Source: a virus. Taken from it: a stretch of 52,678 nucleotides of DNA. Positions 3-52,214 of the stretch are shown piece after piece. The notes under the pieces were generated by a model. The model saw only the letters and a list, made by a program, of their open reading frames with translations, was not told where the DNA came from and searched no databases. The first letter of the stretch is position 1; each line of letters opens with the position of its first letter. A program made the translations under genes and the position numbers. The stretch is taken from the IMG/VR virus record IMGVR_UViG_3300034068_000495, positions 1 through 52,678 of that record; one strand, written 5' to 3'.

Positions 3-695
3 GACGACGACATCTCTCAGGTGATCGCGGAGATCCGAAACCTCGGCTCGGTCGACATGATCGTGATCGACACGCTGGCGCAGGTGACCCCCGGCGCCAA
101 CGAAAACACCAGCGAGGATATGGGCCGCGCACTGCGCAACATTAACCTGCTGCACGAGGCCATTGGCGCCATGAACCTCGTCGTCCACCACGCGGGCAAG
201 GACTTGTCGAAGGGGTCGCGCGGCTGGTCCGGCCTGAAGGCTGCGGCCGACGTGCAGATTGAGGTGCTGCGCCACGAGAACGGCGACCGCGAGATCATCA
301 TCGAGAAGATGAAGGACGGCGAGGACGGCGTTCGATACCCGTTCAAGCTGGAGGTGATCGACGTAGGCATTGACTACGACGGCGACGTCATCACGAGCTG
401 CGTCGCGGTCGAGACCGAGCTGTCGACACCGGCCGGGAACCCGGCGGATCGCAAGGAGGTCAAGCGGCGCGGACGTGTAGAAAATCACCTATTGGAAATT
501 ATGACCGTGTTTGGCAGCGACAGTATCGTCAGTGCCGTAGACCTGATCGACCGCGCCGTGGCCGATTTGCCTGCGCCAGAGGCCGGCAAGCGCGACACCC
601 GCAGACAGTCAGTTGTCCGGGCAATTCAGACACTTAGCAAAGAGAAGGACGGCCCGCTGCGCATGGAAGGCGGAAAGATTATCTTCTACGAGTAA
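3..695 (+). CDS. RepA-like hexameric replicative helicase ATPase (AAA_25), C-terminal part
   Basis: The reading frame is open from the first base and enters from outside the window, so the Walker A region is missing. The visible part starts with a Walker B strand (MIVIDTLAQ), then a sensor-like strand ending in HHAGKD, then GSRGWSGLKAAADVQIEV, the arginine-containing segment typical of RSF1010 RepA/AAA_25 ATPases. The last 70 or so residues look like a winged helix. By family knowledge such proteins unwind DNA at phage or plasmid origins. Its place beside polymerase, ssDNA-binding and nuclease genes fits a replication role. The 3' end runs into the first copy of the repeated leader element. 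A KaiC/RadA-like ATPase is the alternative. Confidence 0.8.
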   Translation, partial: DDDISQVIAEIRNLGSVDMIVIDTLAQVTPGANENTSEDMGRALRNINLLHEAIGAMNLVVHHAGKDLSKGSRGWSGLKAAADVQIEVLRHENGDREIIIEKMKDGEDGVRYPFKLEVIDVGIDYDGDVITSCVAVETELSTPAGNPADRKEVKRRGRVENHLLEIMTVFGSDSIVSAVDLIDRAVADLPAPEAGKRDTRRQSVVRAIQTLSKEKDGPLRMEGGKIIFYE

Positions 696-1894: not shown

Positions 1895-3120
1895 TGGCGC
1901 ACGCCAAGCTGAGCCCGTCGGGGGCGCACCGCTGGCTGCGCTGCCCCGGCAGCGTCGTCCTTGAGGCTCCGTACCCGGACACGAGCAGCATTTACGCCCG
2001 TGAAGGCACCGCCGCGCACGAGCTGTCCGCCATGGTCCTCGAGAACGAGGATGCAGACGCGCAGGGCTACGTCGGCTACAAGATCGAGTTCGACGACAAC
2101 GACGAAGTCGTGCAGTGGCTCGTCACGAAAGACATGGCCGACTACGTCGACGACTACGTCAAGCTCGTGCGCGACATGGCCGAGGGCAAGACGCTCTTGG
2201 TCGAGCGTCGGTTGCCCATCGACCACCTGACCGGCGAGGACGGGGCCACTGGCACCAGCGACGCCGTGATCGTGGACACGACGGGGAACAACCTGACCAT
2301 CATCGACCTGAAGTACGGCATGGGCCGCGTCGTTGCGCAGGATAACCCGCAGCTCATGATGTACGCCCTCGGTGCCTTGGAGGAGTATTCCATTCTGGGC
2401 GACTTCGCTACCATCAGCATGTACATCCACATGCCGCGCCTGAACTTCGTCAGCGAGTGGCACGTGCCGACCGAGGAGCTGCTGGCCGACGGTGAAGACA
2501 TCCGCAAGGGGGCGCAGATGTGCCGCGCGGCCGAGGACGAGGATCCGACGACCCTGAGCGAGTTCCTTGAGCCGGGCGAGGCGCAGTGCCGGTTCTGCAA
2601 GGCCAAGTCGACGTGCCCGGCGCTGCGCGCCGAGATGACGGACGTGGTGGGTGGCGACGCGGCGTGCACGCTTGACGAGTTTGCGGAGTTCTTGCCTGAG
2701 ACGGTCGACACCGCCACCGGCGACAACTACCTGCCGATGGCCATGGCCAAGGTCGATCTGGTCGAGGCGTGGTGCAAGTCGGTCCGCGCCGAGGTCGAGC
2801 GTCGCCTGCTTGCCGGGCAGAAGGTCGACGGCTACAAGCTGGTCGAGGGCAAGCGCGGCAACCGCAAGTGGGGCAGCGAGGCCGAAGTCGAGGGCCTGCT
2901 GAAATCGTTCCGCATGCGGCAGGATGAGATGTATGACTTCAGCCTGATCTCGCCGACGACTGCCGAGAAGGTATTAAAGCAAAACCCCACGCGCTGGGCC
3001 AAGGTCAAAGAGCTGATCACCCAGAGCACGGGCAAACCATCTGTGGCACCCGCCACGGATAAGCGGCCAGAACTGGTCGTTCCATCGGTCGCTGCAGATT
3101 TCAGCGACCTCATCAACTGA
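1894..3120 (+). CDS. DUF2800 protein, PD-(D/E)XK nuclease-like with Cys cluster
   Basis: The 408-residue product begins with SPSGAHRWLRCPGS, the usual opening of DUF2800 proteins. It carries the RecB-like nuclease pattern: His42 in EGTAAHELS, Asp123 in GTSDAV, Asp138 and Lys140 in IIDLKYG, and a Gln153-Tyr157 motif. Cys17 together with Cys232, Cys235 and Cys241 (QCRFCKAKSTC) matches the iron-sulfur arrangement of AddB/Cas4-type nucleases. The likely role is phage DNA recombination or end processing together with the DUF2815 protein that follows. Family assignment is firm; the activity is inferred. Confidence 0.88.
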   Translation: MAHAKLSPSGAHRWLRCPGSVVLEAPYPDTSSIYAREGTAAHELSAMVLENEDADAQGYVGYKIEFDDNDEVVQWLVTKDMADYVDDYVKLVRDMAEGKTLLVERRLPIDHLTGEDGATGTSDAVIVDTTGNNLTIIDLKYGMGRVVAQDNPQLMMYALGALEEYSILGDFATISMYIHMPRLNFVSEWHVPTEELLADGEDIRKGAQMCRAAEDEDPTTLSEFLEPGEAQCRFCKAKSTCPALRAEMTDVVGGDAACTLDEFAEFLPETVDTATGDNYLPMAMAKVDLVEAWCKSVRAEVERRLLAGQKVDGYKLVEGKRGNRKWGSEAEVEGLLKSFRMRQDEMYDFSLISPTTAEKVLKQNPTRWAKVKELITQSTGKPSVAPATDKRPELVVPSVAADFSDLIN

Positions 3121-3136
3121 CAACTGGAGATTTGAT

Positions 3137-6563: not shown

Positions 6564-6856
6564 CCCCCGCCAGCAAGCTGCAGGACCACCTGAAGAAGCT
6601 CGTGCAGGGCAGCGGGGGCCAGTACCGCAAGGTGCGCTGGGAGAACCGCAACGGGTGCCCTGACTGCTACATCTGGTGGACGTGGCCGCGCGCCGCCTTC
6701 GTGGAGGTCAAGGCCGACGGCGACCGTCTCAGCGGCCACCAGCAGCGCGAGATCGAGCGCATGCGGGCCGACGGCGTCCCGGTGTTCATCGCCCGGTCGA
6801 TGGAGGACATCGACGATATCGTGAAAATAGTTAGGGAGGGGGGTTGCAACCTCTGA
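6560..6856 (+). CDS. VRR-NUC domain nuclease (98 aa)
   Basis: The ATG overlaps the end of the previous gene. The single domain carries the VRR-NUC signature: GCPD (Asp35), VEVK (Glu49, Lys51) and the following Gln61 in SGHQQREIERM, then VPVFIARS. By family knowledge these small PD-(D/E)XK enzymes act as structure-selective, often Holliday-junction, nucleases and are commonly linked to SNF2 helicases in phages. An SNF2 gene lies 700 bases downstream. Confidence 0.92.
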   Translation: MTPASKLQDHLKKLVQGSGGQYRKVRWENRNGCPDCYIWWTWPRAAFVEVKADGDRLSGHQQREIERMRADGVPVFIARSMEDIDDIVKIVREGGCNL

Positions 6857-6886
6857 TTGCATGTGCGAGAAGGGTTCATCAGCAAC
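6844..6886 (+). promoter_or_regulatory. Repeated 43-base leader element, copy 2
   Basis: It has the same layout as copy 1: TTGCAA, 7 bases, TTGCATGTGCGAGAAGGG, then TTCATCAGCAAC. It begins inside the last codons of the nuclease gene and lies 19 bases before the ATG at 6906. CTGAT and ATCAG inside the element can pair within the outer GTTGC/GCAAC stem. Confidence 0.75.
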
Positions 6887-6905: not shown

Positions 6906-7337
6906 ATGGCACTTTCACTCTCTTATCGCGACGATCTGGTCGATCTGGGTCGTGACGAAGACGGTTCAGTTATCGTGGGTCGTTCGTTTTACGTAGTAGC
7001 AGAAGACGAAGCCGGTCATCGTTGGGCGCACGCTCATTCGTTTCTGGATCATGCCGAGCGTTACGATGCCGAGGAAGGCCTTCATTATTGGGCGCGTCGT
7101 TGGGACAACGAAGCTGAAGACGCAGTCGCCGCTCTTCTGGCTCGTATCGAAGCCGCTGTGGCCGCCGGTCGTCGTCTGGACGCCGCTCATTGGGTCGAGG
7201 TCGATCCGGCGTATGGCTCGGCTGCTTATCAGGATTTGGCCGCCGTCGGTTACTTCGCCGCTCGTGAGCGTCACGAGGCTCGCGAAGCAGGCGAAGCGGT
7301 CCCCTTCGATCAGCTTTGCGATTATCATTTTGCGTGA
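6906..7337 (+). CDS. Unknown protein (143 aa) with distinctive codon use, behind leader copy 2
   Basis: AGGGACTAAGCAA precedes the ATG at 6906; starting earlier (6861) would translate the leader. The product is acidic, rich in Trp, His and Tyr (RWAHAHSFLDHAERY, LHYWARRWDNEAED) and looks alpha/beta. Of 13 Arg codons 11 are CGT, and CAT and GAA are common, whereas neighbouring genes use CGC, CAC and GAG. This suggests selection for high expression or recent acquisition. No family is recognised. A strong hairpin follows the stop. Confidence 0.7.
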   Translation: MALSLSYRDDLVDLGRDEDGSVIVGRSFYVVAEDEAGHRWAHAHSFLDHAERYDAEEGLHYWARRWDNEAEDAVAALLARIEAAVAAGRRLDAAHWVEVDPAYGSAAYQDLAAVGYFAARERHEAREAGEAVPFDQLCDYHFA

Positions 7338-7342
7338 GGCGC

Positions 7343-7362
7343 GTGGGGGCTTCGGCCCCCAC
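7343..7362 (+). terminator. GC hairpin with TTCG tetraloop
   Basis: GTGGGGGC, TTCG, GCCCCCAC form a perfect 8-bp stem with a very stable tetraloop six bases after the stop of the 143-aa gene. No T tract follows, and the next Shine-Dalgarno begins 8 bases later, so mRNA protection or partial attenuation is as likely as termination. Confidence 0.55.
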
Positions 7363-7380
7363 CAACTTGGAGACACCGAC

Positions 7381-7560
7381 ATGACCATCAACAAAAACTA
7401 CAAAGACCGGACGATCAGTTTCGAGTGCGATACCTGTGGAGACGAGTATGAGGCCGACGGCCTCAACTTCTACGACGCCTACGATGACTACAAGCAAAAC
7501 GGCGGCATCGCGCGCCTTGTCGGCGGGGATTGGGAGCACACCTGCGAGAACTGTAAGTGA
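7381..7560 (+). CDS. Small zinc-ribbon-like protein (59 aa)
   Basis: GGAGACACCGAC stands directly before the ATG, the same initiation context as at 48706, 50008 and 50491. Two Cys pairs, CDTCGDEYEA (about residues 16-25) and HTCENC near the C-terminus, look like the two halves of a zinc knuckle or ribbon. The stop overlaps the GTG of the helicase gene, so the two are coupled. The partner or target is unknown. Confidence 0.7.
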   Translation: MTINKNYKDRTISFECDTCGDEYEADGLNFYDAYDDYKQNGGIARLVGGDWEHTCENCK

Positions 7561-8915
7561 CCTTCACCCCTCACGACTACCAGCAGGAGGCAATGGCGCA
7601 CCTGTACAACGTGCGCCGGAGCGCCCTGTGGATGCCCATGGGCGGCGGGAAGACCGTCAGCACCCTGACGGCGCTGGACAACCTGTCCCTCGTCGAGGAC
7701 GTGTTCCCCGCGCTGGTGCTGGCCCCTCTGCGCGTCGCCCGGTCGACGTGGCCGGACGAGGTCGCCAAGTGGCCGCACCTGTCCCACCTGCGCGTGTCCG
7801 TCGTCACCGGCACGCCGAAGCAGCGGCAGGCGGCGCTCGACGTCCCGGCCGACATCTACACAACGAACTACGACAACCTTGTGTGGCTCCGGGAGGCGCT
7901 GGGCGACGCATGGCCGTTCCGAACGGTCGTCGCCGACGAGTTCACGCGGCTGAAGTCTTTCCGCATCAGGCAGGGCGGCTCACGCGCCCGGGCGCTGGGG
8001 CAGGTGGCACACACGCACGTCGGCCGCTTCATCGGCCTGACGGGCACGCCGGCACCGAACGGCGTCAAGGATCTGTGGGGCCAGATCTGGTTCCTCGACA
8101 AGGGCGAGCGGCTGGGCCGCACGTTCAGTGCCTTCGTGTCTCGCTGGTTCTTCAAGGGCCGCGACGGGTTCAGCCTCATCCCCTACGAACACGCGCAGAG
8201 AGAGGTCGAGGAGCGGCTGCGCGACATCTGCCTGACCGTGCGCGGCCTGCCGGTCGACAAGCCCATCACCAGCCCGATCTACATCGACCTGCCGCCGGCA
8301 GCGCGCCGCGCGTATGACGAGATGGAGGAGGAGATGTACACGATCCTCAACAGAGAGGGCGTCGAGGCGGCCAACGCCGCCGTGCGGACGCAGAAGTGCC
8401 TGCAGCTCGCCAACGGTGCGATGTACACCGATGAGTACGGCAACTGGCAGGCCGTGCACGACGCGAAGCTGGACGCGCTTGAGAGCGTCATTGAGGAGGC
8501 GAATGGCGCCCCCGTCTTGGTGGCCTATAACTTCAAGCACGATCTGGAGCGCCTGCGGGGCCGGTTCCGTCAGGGCCGAATGTTGGACGCCGACCCGCAG
8601 ACGATCAGGGACTGGAACGCCGGCCGGATCTCGATCCTCTTCGCACACCCGGCGTCGGCAGGACACGGGCTGAACCTCGCCGACGGCGGCAACATCCTCG
8701 CCTTCTACGGGGTCAACTGGAACCTTGAGGAGCACATGCAGATCATCGAGCGGATCGGCCCGATGCGTCAGAAGCAGGCCGGGTACGACAGGCCGGTGTT
8801 CATCTACCCGATCCTCGCCCGCCACACGGTCGATGATCTCGTCATGGACCGCCTGTCGTCGAAGAAGAGCATTCAAGAAATCTTATTGGAAGCGATGAAG
8901 AGGAAAGCGAAATGA
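7557..8915 (+). CDS. SNF2-type DEAD-like helicase/ATPase
   Basis: The GTG start overlaps the upstream stop by four bases. The 452-residue protein shows HDYQQEAM (Q-like motif), Walker A MGGGKT (Lys32), motif II VVADEFTRLK (Asp127, Glu128), motif III TGTPAPN, then ASAGHGLNL (366-374) and QIIERIGPMRQ (395-405), in place of the usual IHRIGQ. Such phage SNF2 proteins are thought to remodel DNA or protein-DNA complexes during replication or recombination, often with VRR-NUC. The ATGA overlap couples it to the next gene. Confidence 0.92.
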   Translation: MTFTPHDYQQEAMAHLYNVRRSALWMPMGGGKTVSTLTALDNLSLVEDVFPALVLAPLRVARSTWPDEVAKWPHLSHLRVSVVTGTPKQRQAALDVPADIYTTNYDNLVWLREALGDAWPFRTVVADEFTRLKSFRIRQGGSRARALGQVAHTHVGRFIGLTGTPAPNGVKDLWGQIWFLDKGERLGRTFSAFVSRWFFKGRDGFSLIPYEHAQREVEERLRDICLTVRGLPVDKPITSPIYIDLPPAARRAYDEMEEEMYTILNREGVEAANAAVRTQKCLQLANGAMYTDEYGNWQAVHDAKLDALESVIEEANGAPVLVAYNFKHDLERLRGRFRQGRMLDADPQTIRDWNAGRISILFAHPASAGHGLNLADGGNILAFYGVNWNLEEHMQIIERIGPMRQKQAGYDRPVFIYPILARHTVDDLVMDRLSSKKSIQEILLEAMKRKAK

Positions 8916-9250
8916 ATTACCAGTGTGGCATATGCGACGCGTTTTACTGGGATCTGGCCGGCGCCGAGGCCGATGCGGCGCTCGCCAAGCTGACCGGTGG
9001 CAGCTCTGACTATTACAAGGTGCGCGTCGAGAGGCCGACGTCCGGCGGCGAGCCGTACATGGCAGAGTGCAACGACATCATCGAGGCGTTGTGCATGGAG
9101 TACGACGTGGCGAATGCGTTCAAGGCGGCGTGGCGCGTGGCCGCGCTACGTCAAGGTCACGGCAAGCCGGGGCAGGACAGCGCGCGGTACGACGGCGAGA
9201 AGATCGTGTTTTTTGGGCAGCGAATTGTGGAACGGGAGAACGGGAAGTGA
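8912..9250 (+). CDS. Unknown phage protein (112 aa), possibly DUF3310-like C-terminus
   Basis: It starts with an ATGA overlap on the helicase gene. A CGICDAFYWD segment at the N-terminus is followed by a helical region: CNDIIEALCMEYDVANAFKA, then WRVAALRQGHGKPGQDSARYD and a final EKIVFFGQRIVE. The C-terminal part faintly recalls the DUF3310 pattern of small phage proteins. The assignment is weak; position suggests DNA metabolism. Confidence 0.6.
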   Translation: MNYQCGICDAFYWDLAGAEADAALAKLTGGSSDYYKVRVERPTSGGEPYMAECNDIIEALCMEYDVANAFKAAWRVAALRQGHGKPGQDSARYDGEKIVFFGQRIVERENGK

Positions 9251-47580: not shown

Positions 47581-47771
47581 AGGGTCCGATACAAGTTGAG
47601 CGCGTCGCGAAGCTGCGCGTTCATCTCACGCATCTTGTCGTACCGGTCCGCCAGCAGGTCGCAGCGATGGCTCACGCTCGCTACGGTGCGCTCGGCGATT
47701 GCAGCGTCTGCCTCAAGTTGCGCGTTGCGCTGCTCGAGCTCGGCGATGCGTCGCCACGGGTTCCAGATCAC
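47577..47771 (-). CDS. Small coiled-coil protein between terminase genes (64 aa)
   Basis: The GTG start overlaps the TerS stop (GTGA), and its own stop overlaps the TerL GTG, so it is translationally coupled to both. The product is one long helix (RRIAELEQRNAQLEADAAIA, CDLLADRYDKMREMNAQLRD). It may bridge or regulate the terminase complex; this is inferred from its position only. Confidence 0.68.
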   Translation of the reverse strand: MIWNPWRRIAELEQRNAQLEADAAIAERTVASVSHRCDLLADRYDKMREMNAQLRDALNLYRTL

Positions 47772-48223
47772 TTGCCGTCCCTCGCACGCAACGCCTCAGA
47801 CAACGCGAGGGTGAGCGCGACGTTGTCGACGTTGCTGTCGATCTTGAGCGTCTCGCCCTCCTTGTTGCCGACGTCGACAGTCTGCTTGGGGCTGTATTTC
47901 TTAGGGTTCCAGCAGGCCAGCAGCTTCAGCCGCGTCTCGACCTGCGCACGCTTCCACTGCACGTGGCCCGGGTCGATCTTCCCGTCGACGCGCGCCGGCT
48001 CTGCATCGATCAGGGCGAGGGCATGATCCGCGATGGCGTCACCGCCAACCTCGCGCGCGGTCGCGTACGCGACTGCCAGCGCTTCGTCCGCCGCTACCCA
48101 CTTGCCCCAGTTGACCGGGTGAAACCCCAACTCACGGCCGAGCGCAGCCAACGTCTCACCCAGAGCGAGGCGCTCAAGGACTTCCGCTTCAAGTTTGGGG
48201 GTGCGCTTTGTCGGCGTGGGCAT
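47768..48223 (-). CDS. terS: Terminase small subunit candidate (151 aa)
   Basis: This is the first gene of the late cluster; GGAGCACGCAGAGT precedes its ATG. An N-terminal HTH-like part (EAEVLERLALGETLAALGRE, then HPVNWGKWVAADEALAVAYA) is followed by DAEPARVDGKIDPGHVQWKR and QVETRLKLLACWNPKKYSPK, the pattern of phage TerS proteins of the terminase_5/HTH type. It would recognise the packaging site. Confidence 0.85.
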   Translation of the reverse strand: MPTPTKRTPKLEAEVLERLALGETLAALGRELGFHPVNWGKWVAADEALAVAYATAREVGGDAIADHALALIDAEPARVDGKIDPGHVQWKRAQVETRLKLLACWNPKKYSPKQTVDVGNKEGETLKIDSNVDNVALTLALSEALRARDGK

Positions 48224-48386
48224 ACTCTGCGTGCTCCGCTAAGTGGCAGGACTACCAGACCCCCTAGATACGCTCGATCACCGCGCACCGCAACCCCAGC
48301 CTTTCCACGGGTGCAACGCAACGCACCACGGGAGCCTAAAAGTTTCAGCGCCACCCCCTGCAACGCAACGCGAAATCGCTGCAACG

Positions 48387-48438
48387 TGCAACGCGAGGGG
48401 GGCATAGACTACGTCTATAGCCCTCTCCCTGCGTTGCA
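48387..48438. repeat. Extended dyad around ATAGAC-TAC-GTCTAT
   Basis: TGCAACGC (48387-48394) and GCGTTGCA (48431-48438) are perfect inverted arms. Inside them GGGC and GCCC flank the perfect dyad ATAGAC, TAC, GTCTAT (48404-48418). It may be a cruciform, an operator pair or a terminator acting in both directions. Confidence 0.65.
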
Positions 48439-48584
48439 AGTAGCATTGCACCGCGCAACATCTGCTGCAACGTTGCCTCGCGTTGCACGTTGCAAACCCT
48501 AAAAATACCCAACATTTTCATATCATTAGCGATTTTTTACTCGTGTTGCAAAGCACCTTTTGCACCGCTCAAACCCGGCCCAAA

Positions 48585-48609
48585 TGCAACGCGAGACCCT
48601 CGCGTTGCA
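48585..48609. repeat. Perfect 11-bp inverted repeat, 3-base spacer
   Basis: TGCAACGCGAG, ACC, CTCGCGTTGCA. The outer half of each arm is the TGCAAC box repeated throughout the region, so it looks like a high-affinity dimer site for a DNA-binding protein. Confidence 0.75.
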
Positions 48610-48647
48610 CGCGTTGCAGCAACACGTAAAAAACTGCATATACCCTA

Positions 48648-48690
48648 TTGCAACCCATGCTTGCATGTGCGAGAAGGGCTCATCAGCAAC
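48648..48690 (+). promoter_or_regulatory. Repeated 43-base leader element, copy 3
   Basis: TTGCAA, 7 bases, TTGCATGTGCGAGAAGGG, then CTCATCAGCAAC, 15 bases before the ATG at 48706. GTAAAAAACTGCATATACCC lies just upstream and partly matches the sequence before copy 1; TATACC there could be a -10 element, which would place the element in the transcribed leader. Confidence 0.78.
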
Positions 48691-48705
48691 ACAGGAGACA
48701 CCGAC

Positions 48706-49143
48706 ATGACGACCACCCTCACCGCCGCCCGCCCGTGGATCGCAGAGCGCACCGCCGAGATCAACGCCGCCGCCGACGCCATCACCGCCCTGAACATCGG
48801 CGACGGTGTCAGCGTCTCGGTCTGGACCGACGTGGACGCCTACACCGTCGTCAAGAAGACCGCGACGACGATCACGCTCCGCGCCGACACCGCCACGCTC
48901 CTCAACCGCGACGAGCTGCGCTTCATCCCCGGCGGCTTCGCTGCCCACTGCGACAACCAAGCCGACCAGCGTTACTCGTACGCGGCCAACCCCAACGGCC
49001 GCGAGATCAAGATCAGCCTGCGCCGCTGGGCCGACGAGGACGGCGCCGAGCGCCGCAAGTGGAAGAGCGCCGGCACCAAGACCTTCGAGCAGGGCGGCAA
49101 CGCCTACGCCGGCCGCCGCGCCTTCCACGACTTCAACTTCTGA
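48706..49143 (+). CDS. Unknown protein (145 aa) behind leader copy 3
   Basis: GGAGACACCGAC directly precedes the ATG at 48706; an in-frame extension to 48490 would cross the control region and is rejected. The product starts MTTTLTAARPWIAERTAEIN, has a beta-rich core (GDGVSVSVWTDVDAYTVVKK, TTITLRADTATLLNRDELRF) and a basic C-terminal half (EIKISLRRWADEDGAERRKW). It may be a small beta-barrel DNA- or RNA-binding protein. As the first gene of the right-hand operon under the shared leader, it is expected to be early. Confidence 0.7.
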   Translation: MTTTLTAARPWIAERTAEINAAADAITALNIGDGVSVSVWTDVDAYTVVKKTATTITLRADTATLLNRDELRFIPGGFAAHCDNQADQRYSYAANPNGREIKISLRRWADEDGAERRKWKSAGTKTFEQGGNAYAGRRAFHDFNF

Positions 49144-49201: not shown

Positions 49202-49435
49202 ATGCGCTTCGGAGACATCACCATCAACAGCGACCGCTTCGGCACCACGCTCACGCACCACGCCGAGCGCCGCAGCCTCTACTTCCAGCCGGGAGACGAG
49301 GCGGGCGACCTGCACGACGCGCTGGAGGCCACTGAGGCCGCGCTGGAGGCCAGCGGCGTCACCTACACCTACGCCGACGTCCTCGCGGCCGTGTGGGACG
49401 ACTACAGGGACGCAGGACAGGAGGTTGAGGCATGA
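49202..49435 (+). CDS. Small acidic unknown protein (77 aa)
   Basis: GGAGACACCACC precedes the ATG. The product reads MRFGDITINSDRFGTTLTHH, YFQPGDEAGDLHDALEATEA, and YADVLAAVWDDYRDAGQEVE. The stop overlaps the ATG of the XRE/sigma gene (ATGA), so the two are translationally coupled; it could be a partner or antagonist of that regulator. Confidence 0.62.
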   Translation: MRFGDITINSDRFGTTLTHHAERRSLYFQPGDEAGDLHDALEATEAALEASGVTYTYADVLAAVWDDYRDAGQEVEA

Positions 49436-49980
49436 GCGACTACCGCATCAAGATCTCGATCAGCAACGGCCGCATCCTCCGGCTGATGGACGATGCGGGC
49501 ATCGAGACGCAGACCGAGTTGGCCCGCCGCGCGGGCATGGGGGTGGTAGCCGTCAACGCCATCGTCAAGATGCGCGACCTGCCGAAGCTGCAGAACGGCG
49601 ACTGGCGTGACGCGGTGCAGCGCATCGCGGCAGTGCTAGGCGTGGCCCCCGAGGAGATGTTCACCGACACGCAGGCCAACGGCACCCTCGAAAAGAGCAC
49701 CTTCGAGACCGGCCTGACCGAGGCGCAGATGGGCAGCCTGTGTGGCCCCGACGCCGTCACGCAGCTCGAGGAACAGGACATGGTGGCCCACCTCATGATG
49801 GAACTGCCAGACCGCGAACGGCGTGTGATCACGGCGCGCATGGAGGGCGACACGCTTGCGGAGGTCGGGCTGAAGATAGGCACCCAAGCGGAGCGCGTGC
49901 GCCAGCTCGAGGCGAGGGCGATCCGCCACATGCGGAGGCAGGCGCACCGCCTCAACATCCGCGCCGATGACGCTTTCTAG
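49432..49980 (+). CDS. XRE-type HTH fused to sigma-70 region 4-like domain (182 aa)
   Basis: Residues about 8-77 form a Cro/C1-type HTH domain (GRILRLMDDAGIETQTELAR, RAGMGVVAVNAIVKMRD, then VQRIAAVLGVAPEEMF). Residues about 123-172 match sigma-70 region 4: ELPDRERRVITARMEGDTLA, EVGLKIGTQAERVRQLEARA, IRHMRR. No region 2 (-10 recognition, core binding) is present. The XRE half could bind an operator and the region 4 half could touch a -35 element or the RNA polymerase beta flap, so it may be a phage transcription activator or appropriator. The role is inferred; both domain matches are seen directly. Confidence 0.82.
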   Translation: MSDYRIKISISNGRILRLMDDAGIETQTELARRAGMGVVAVNAIVKMRDLPKLQNGDWRDAVQRIAAVLGVAPEEMFTDTQANGTLEKSTFETGLTEAQMGSLCGPDAVTQLEEQDMVAHLMMELPDRERRVITARMEGDTLAEVGLKIGTQAERVRQLEARAIRHMRRQAHRLNIRADDAF

Positions 49981-50424: not shown

Positions 50425-50432
50425 ATTAGCTG

Positions 50433-50475
50433 TTGCAACCTGTGATTGCATGTGCGAGAAAGGCTCATCAGCAAC
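50433..50475 (+). promoter_or_regulatory. Repeated 43-base leader element, copy 4
   Basis: TTGCAA, 7 bases, TTGCATGTGCGAGAAAGG, then CTCATCAGCAAC, 15 bases before the ATG at 50491. GATAAATTAG lies just upstream. It begins eight bases after the stop of the Mor-like gene, so it separates two transcription or translation units. Confidence 0.78.
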
Positions 50476-50490
50476 CAAGGAGACACCGAC

Positions 50491-50715
50491 ATGACGATCA
50501 TATCGAACCCGGCCTACCTCGCCGCCGTAGACCAAGCCATGGATGTACGCGAGGCGGCGTTTGATGCGGCCAATGAGACCTACGCCGCCGATTGGCAGAG
50601 CAATCGAAGCGCCGCCATAAAGGCTCGCGTTGCCGCCTATAAGGTAGCTGACAAAACATTCGCAGCGGCCTGCGCCGCAGCCGCCGAAGCGGTTTTCTCC
50701 GCAGCCGCGAAGTAA
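50491..50715 (+). CDS. Ala-rich small protein (74 aa) behind leader copy 4
   Basis: GGAGACACCGAC precedes the ATG. The product is almost entirely helical (AMDVREAAFDAANETYAADW, FAAACAAAAEAVFSAAAK) and Ala-rich in a heptad-like rhythm. It is related in style to the Ala-rich proteins at 51500 and 51933. Function unknown. Confidence 0.65.
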   Translation: MTIISNPAYLAAVDQAMDVREAAFDAANETYAADWQSNRSAAIKARVAAYKVADKTFAAACAAAAEAVFSAAAK

Positions 50716-51499: not shown

Positions 51500-51730
51500 A
51501 TGACTGAGATTGAGAGACTGAAAGTTGCACGGGATGCCGCCAGCGCTGCCGCCGACGCCGCCCGAAACGCCGCCCTTGACGTTGCTTACGCCGCTTTCGA
51601 CGCCGCAGCCATCGCCGCCGACGCCGCATACGACGCCGCCCGAGACGCTTTCGACGCCGCCGTAGACGCCGCCAATGCCGACCGGGGCGCTGCCGCCTAC
51701 GCCGCCCGCGCCGCTTTGGTGACGCCATGA
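51500..51730 (+). CDS. Ala-rich heptad-repeat protein (76 aa)
   Basis: AGGAGACTGACCT precedes the ATG. The product starts MTEIERLKVARDAASAAADA and continues with repeats such as AAYDAARDAFDAAVDAANA, with Ala at most positions and Asp/Arg on one face, as in long solitary helices or coiled coils. Its start and Shine-Dalgarno resemble those of the gene at 51933, suggesting duplication. Confidence 0.65.
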   Translation: MTEIERLKVARDAASAAADAARNAALDVAYAAFDAAAIAADAAYDAARDAFDAAVDAANADRGAAAYAARAALVTP

Positions 51731-51936
51731 GCCGCGACTTGCGCGAGGAGGTGGCGTATGCCGTCCGCAGGAAAGCGAGCCTTTACATAAGCACGCTAGA
51801 AGGCGAGCAGATTGCAGACGCCATCCTCCCCATCATCGCTCGCGAGGTCGAAGCCGCCCTTGACGCCGTCGCCGCCTACAGCGCCGCCTATCGCGCCGCC
51901 GCTCTCGCAGCGCAAGAACAGGAGACTGACCAATGA
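51727..51936 (+). CDS. Unknown helical protein (69 aa)
   Basis: It starts with an ATGA overlap on the Ala-rich gene and ends with ATGA on the next. The product reads MSRDLREEVAYAVRRKASLY, ISTLEGEQIADAILPIIARE, then an Ala-rich C-terminus. The first half resembles short phage helical proteins with an EQIADAIL pattern; function unknown. Confidence 0.6.
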   Translation: MSRDLREEVAYAVRRKASLYISTLEGEQIADAILPIIAREVEAALDAVAAYSAAYRAAALAAQEQETDQ

Positions 51937-52214
51937 CTGAGGTAGAGAGGCTGCGAGCCGCCCACGACGCGGCTGTTGCGCGGGCTGAGGCGGCGCGAAC
52001 GGCGCTGCTGGCGACAGGTGATGCGTTGGCAGCGGCGACCAAGCGGGCAATGGAAGCCCGCGCAGAAGGCGAGCGCAGGGCAACGGCTGCGATTGTGGCG
52101 GACTTGCGGGCGATGAGTGCGCTTTATAGCACCGGGCTACCGAGCGCCTTAGCGGCCCGCTACGAAACTGGCGAACACCTCGCAGCGCAAGAGAAGGAAA
52201 CCCCCAATGAGTAA
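51933..52214 (+). CDS. Ala-rich coiled-coil protein, paralogue-like of 51500 gene (93 aa)
   Basis: CAGGAGACTGACCA precedes the ATG and the product opens MTEVERLRAAHDAAVARAEA, close to the opening of the protein at 51500. The second half (LRAMSALYSTGLPSALAARY) is different. It is helical and charged; function unknown. Confidence 0.62.
   Translation: MTEVERLRAAHDAAVARAEAARTALLATGDALAAATKRAMEARAEGERRATAAIVADLRAMSALYSTGLPSALAARYETGEHLAAQEKETPNE

Follow-up and report, generated by a model that had tools for sequence, protein, structure and literature searches.

The divergent intergenic region between the small-terminase gene terS and the first early gene of an uncultured phage carries a dense cluster of TGCAAC boxes, which raises the question of what reads these boxes and what the region does. 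The window that we analysed is the whole record of this phage, 52,678 bases long. An earlier reading, made from the letters alone (the sequence-only reading), saw in the cluster the layout of an iteron-type origin or of a cooperative operator array, and named a packaging site as a further option because of the neighbouring TerS. We argue here that the region from 48.3 to 48.65 kb is probably an iteron-type DNA replication origin, which would be read by the primase-helicase initiator of the phage.

The sequence-only reading counted at least 13 TGCAAC/GTTGCA boxes, far above expectation, in both orientations and on either side of an AT-rich segment (48493-48540), and each of these statements holds. 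The hexamer has no overall enrichment in the record, with 34 copies versus 32.5 expected from dinucleotide shuffles. Thirteen of the 34 lie within 343 bp, seven on the plus strand and six on the minus strand, and the proposed check of hexamer density elsewhere in the genome leaves this as the only dense cluster. From the rest of the record, 0.19 boxes would be expected in the 482-bp intergenic region (Poisson P ~7e-20), and 5000 rounds of random placement produced at most 6 boxes per 343 bp, versus the 13 observed. The thirteenth box (48649) is part of the early operon's promoter-like leader and not of the array. The AT-rich segment has 29% GC versus 63% overall and overlaps the lowest-GC 48-mer of the record. 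Iteron origins are expected to have compact copies of a short repeat and an adjacent AT-rich unwinding element; the region has the compact repeats, and the 48-mer inside the array is a candidate for that element. The region also contains inverted repeats, a palindrome and a bulged hairpin, all absent from the sequence-only reading (Table 1), and single-strand folding gives z values of -9.5 (plus strand) and -7.0 (minus strand).

Table 1. Features of the array region and of the proposed initiator gene, in window coordinates
Feature	Position	Strand	Detail
terS (Sf6-type small terminase)	47768..48223	-	left neighbour of array
Array of 13 TGCAAC boxes	48312..48654	both orientations	extended box TGCANCRYG
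Box starts	48312, 48359, 48380, 48387, 48466, 48585, 48649	+	
Box starts	48433, 48482, 48489, 48545, 48604, 48613	-	
Left arm, 19-nt perfect inverted repeat	48380..48398	+	TGCAACGTGCAACGCGAGG; two boxes spaced 7 bp
Bulged hairpin	48400..48423	.	GGGCATAGACTACGTCTATAGCCC = GGGC-ATAGAC-TAC-GTCTAT-A-GCCC
Right arm, 19-nt perfect inverted repeat	48476..48494	-	
Most AT-rich 48 bp of record	48494..48541	.	48-mer from 48494 has lowest GC; inside array; candidate unwinding element
25-nt palindrome	48585..48609	.	TGCAACGCGAG-ACC-CTCGCGTTGCA; two facing boxes
Promoter-like leader of early operon	48645..48705	+	TTGCAAC...CATCAGCAAC...AGGAG; adjoins array, outside it
First early gene (phrog_19789)	48706..49143	+	right neighbour of array
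Primase-helicase, C-terminal third (proposed initiator)	21..695	+	tail KRDTRRQSVVRAIQTLSKEKDGPLRMEGGKIIFYE; N-terminus lost at contig end

The early genes run rightward from 48706 and apparently resume at 1-9.4 kb with those for an exonuclease, SSB, DNA polymerase A and a helicase, and the leftward genes include terS and terL. The gap between the two contig ends is about 2.5 kb, an estimate from a comparison of positions with a relative, L128, whose array lies at 1467 and whose complete primase-helicase occupies 6973-8997. At 51500-52214 of the window there are short Ala-Asp-rich early genes with GCCGAC-type DNA repeats, which vary in number and sequence among relatives. GC skew, suggested earlier in cumulative form as a check on the origin, does not change sign at the array, and the flip in AT skew at 48 kb goes with the direction of the genes.

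The array is not peculiar to this phage. A TerL scan for relatives yielded 80 loci, and dense TGCANC arrays recur among them at the same place, upstream of terS and between terS and the early operon, with the core TGCAAC, TGCAGC or TGCACC. A 16-mer overlap filter reduced 61 arrays to 35 non-redundant loci; the box statistics exclude three of these (L011, L041 and L055), which we judged to be probable coding matches. The shared box is a nonamer, TGCANCRYG, and in most arrays its N is constant, as A, G or C. A-type arrays also have C and T at this position and nearly no G, and most G-type arrays have nearly no A; the arrays of G032, L151 and L152 are mixed and were scored as G by majority or context. 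Tandem boxes are often spaced by 7, 9, 10 or 11 bp, and many boxes lie 7-11 bp apart, yet both orientations and irregular gaps occur; such tandem spacing would suit cooperative binding. In some relatives the boxes differ, for example GTGACAC or ACATCTC. Two further scans of viral contigs returned almost solely contigs that were already known, and a search of bacterial genomes gave three weak matches. In the Roseobacter phage CRP-6 (L086 1-620, MK613348), TGACAT and TGCAAC boxes are interspersed upstream of the terminase genes, and the divergent region carries a second repeat, TTTTCCATCGGAGGG; this region is a possible origin in a cultured phage.

Array, hairpin and AT-rich element are conserved together at one place per genome. 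The hairpin changes in sequence among relatives and keeps its pairing. In nine arrays of one architecture, all six inner pairs are kept, five of them with changes on both sides, and the covariation score is 0.80 versus 0.23 for shuffled and at most 0.16 for slid controls. That 100% of cells are paired is favoured by selection, because the nine rows were picked for showing the hairpin; the double changes are the informative part of this evidence. Eleven further hairpins form a GC-rich group that aligns less clearly.

Which protein, then, could read the boxes? The nearest candidate is TerS, and with it comes the proposal that the region is a packaging site or genome terminus, in which the hairpin marks the terminase cut and the boxes are small-terminase sites. 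The position of terS beside the array fits this proposal, and so does the closest cultured kin, Caulobacter phage RLK (TerL 60%), whose terminal repeat, annotated as 2,940 bp, ends at 2940, 6 bp from a palindrome (GAGGCTAAGAGCCTC, 2920-2934) in the equivalent divergent intergenic place. However, TerS is 100% identical in the window (AAC array), in L007-L009, L011 and L012 (ACC) and in L010 (AGC), and XRE-sigma4, the second candidate, is 95% identical among the window, G002 and G004, whose arrays are AAC, ACC and AGC; neither protein, therefore, reads the variable base. Moreover, the RLK palindrome stands without a TGCANC array, with a weak TAGYCGC cluster only, contig ends show no accumulation at the hairpin, and the part of PMC11053796 available to us does not give the basis on which the RLK ends were determined. 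A packaging site as the main function thus seems unlikely. TerS is not supported as the box reader, and of the earlier suggestion a terminus near the hairpin survived: the nearness of the RLK repeat end to the palindrome makes a combined origin and terminus possible, and a packaging end may lie close to the hairpin.

The operator half of the earlier suggestion, in which a phage regulator would bind the boxes cooperatively and control the two divergent operons, seems more improbable still. The divergent promoter region, the boxes of either orientation that extend to the leader promoter and their helical spacing would all suit an operator, but the record has one dense cluster, with no other cluster of matching sites at further promoters in the window, and an operator needs neither an AT minimum nor a hairpin that keeps its base pairing and not its sequence. 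Nor do the candidate regulators track the core. XRE-sigma4, encoded at 49432-49980 of the window, combines a Cro/C1-type HTH with a sigma-70 region 4 domain and was matched in only 3 of the 38 records searched, several of these being fragments. The YdaS-like HTH beside the initiator is nearly the same in genomes with A and with C arrays (G007, G019) and has at most two recognition-helix differences between A and G arrays.

Four similar promoter-like leaders (TTGCAAC...TTGCATGTGCGAGAAGGGCTCATCAGCAAC...AGGAG) precede early genes on the plus strand, at 704-779, 6843-6886, 48645-48705 and 50432-50500; those away from the cluster lack an array. The sequence-only reading had linked them to the array through a shared core, a link that did not survive comparison with relatives. 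Leader elements have counterparts there that are independent of the array core: among the first-gene leaders of AAC, AGC and ACC relatives TTGCAA is kept in most and replaced by TTGACC or TTTACA in some, and leaders beside GCTGCA or GGTGCA array cores still have TTGCAA or an unrelated -35-like sequence. We therefore rejected the leaders as array members; their TTGCAA is more likely a -35-like promoter element.

An unbiased search of sampled early regions gave no gene family that cleanly follows the array core, and among the gene families in these regions no separate iteron-binding protein of the RepC type was identified. The primase-helicase is the candidate whose tail covaries with the array, with one clear exception. 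In its complete copy (L128), the N-terminus matches primase structures (7ola, 6a9w and others), of PrimPol type and not Toprim, and is followed by PriCT_2 and AAA_25; this copy also matches PHROG primase/helicase families, and proteins of related phages carry the annotation "helicase RepA family". To the eye, the tail, about 75 residues long, resembles a small winged-helix domain; a profile search with it returned no solved structure.

When A and C arrays were compared with G arrays, one column in this C-terminal tail stood out. The tail reads KRD-T-RRQ with A or C arrays, KRD-I-RRQ with G arrays and, in a deeper clade, KRD-L-RRR with C arrays. Threonine at this position goes with an A or C array in 9 of 10 genomes, the exception being L165 (G array), and isoleucine with a G array in all 14, some of which form a single clade of close relatives. 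Three arrays, of L134, L150 and L165, were added once the rule was known; L134 and L150 follow it and L165 does not. For G002 (C array), whose contig ends before the residue, identical neighbouring HTH proteins in L185 and L186 suggest that it is probably isoleucine, which would go against the rule. Deeper relatives combine other tails with other boxes, L-type tails with TGCACC and a Q-type tail with GTGACAC.

With a score of 0.775 (mutual information divided by the larger entropy; 24 T/I genomes), the T/I column ranks above every other column of the initiator and above those of five control proteins. Among the controls the DUF2800 exonuclease comes nearest, with columns that are almost as strongly associated (0.745 and 0.734), and shared ancestry therefore explains part of the signal. 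The exonuclease columns do not separate G013 (I, G array) from G017 (T, A array), which are 86.6% identical and are among the independent pairs. On a tree built without the last 50 residues, supported branches provide three such pairs; most random pairings have all three in agreement, and they are never opposed, although with three pairs a sign test (p 0.25) cannot reach significance. Because it was found by searching many columns, the T/I column is a lead only. The covariation of tail and core, together with the constraint on box positions 6-9 across lineages and the excess of tandem phased over facing boxes, nonetheless makes it very improbable that the region is an inverted-repeat cluster kept uniform by local duplication and acting through hairpins or cruciforms with no sequence-specific reader, even though its single-strand folding is very strong, its facing boxes form hairpins and no reader fully explains the core.

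Reading by the initiator at a replication origin, the option of the earlier layout that we retain, thus gains support from the conserved array, the phased nonamer, the local AT minimum, the covarying hairpin and the covarying tail. On this reading, the winged-helix-like tail of the primase-helicase (PrimPol-like domain, PriCT-2, AAA_25 helicase, tail) would bind the TGCANCRYG boxes, the AT-rich stretch would then open and the helicase would load. The exposed bulged hairpin could serve as the start or assembly site of the primase, and forks would depart in the direction of the two divergent operons. This order of binding, opening, loading and priming is a model drawn from P4, RSF1010 and pRN1 (PMC4234260) and from the swapped origins of PLE satellites (PMC8263062).

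The array also changes hands, apparently in step with the initiator. Between G002 and the window, both flanks are 93-95% identical, and window positions 48297-48634 are swapped for 800 unrelated bases and an extra gene; G006 and G019 are mostly 95-99% identical and have different array blocks. In some cassettes this extra gene (MWSNADEV...) separates the array from terS, and it travels with the array (G002 2334-3134; G006, reverse complement, 2216-2827). Array swapping resembles the origin exchange of PLE satellites (PMC8263062), and a similar conflict may therefore act on free-living phages. We tentatively suggest, as a possibility that we hold with some doubt, that a few tail residues largely set the origin specificity of a one-piece primase-helicase initiator, and that otherwise near-identical phages trade the origin (iterons, AT element, bulged hairpin and perhaps the genome terminus) as a cassette, possibly as an escape from origin-exploiting satellites or rival phages. 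A large uncultured phage family would gain a defined origin of replication and a proposed initiator for it, and the matched and swapped initiator/array pairs would be a natural series for testing a DNA-recognition rule.

Several known systems share parts of this arrangement. The PLE of Vibrio cholerae differs in being a satellite with a RepA_N initiator and iterons of about 30 bp, and its origin specificity and binding have been shown experimentally. In pRN1 (ORF904) and phage BIP-1, primase-helicase-winged-helix proteins accompany a conserved stem-loop of low sequence conservation (PMC4234260), much as a winged-helix-like tail accompanies a stem-loop of varying sequence here; pRN1, however, lacks iterons, its stem-loop is 100 nt long and its helicase is SF3. 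At the RSF1010 oriV, RepC binds iterons, RepA is the helicase and RepB' primes at the ssi stem-loops (PMC4234260). Our locus likewise has iterons, a RepA-type helicase (AAA_25) and a short stem-loop, the primase site in RSF1010, but these functions would sit in one protein, with no separate RepC seen, and use of the hairpin by the primase is our proposal. Finally, the alpha protein of bacteriophage P4, according to PMC4234260 and to general knowledge, is a single polypeptide with primase, helicase and a C-terminal DNA-binding domain, the last of which reads the origin repeats. The primase of P4 alpha is Toprim, in contrast to the PrimPol-type N-terminus and AAA_25 helicase here, and our locus further differs from P4 in the bulged hairpin that accompanies its repeats and in the swapping of array types among close relatives. 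As at the P4 ori, however, one protein would combine primase, helicase and a putative C-terminal DNA-binding domain.
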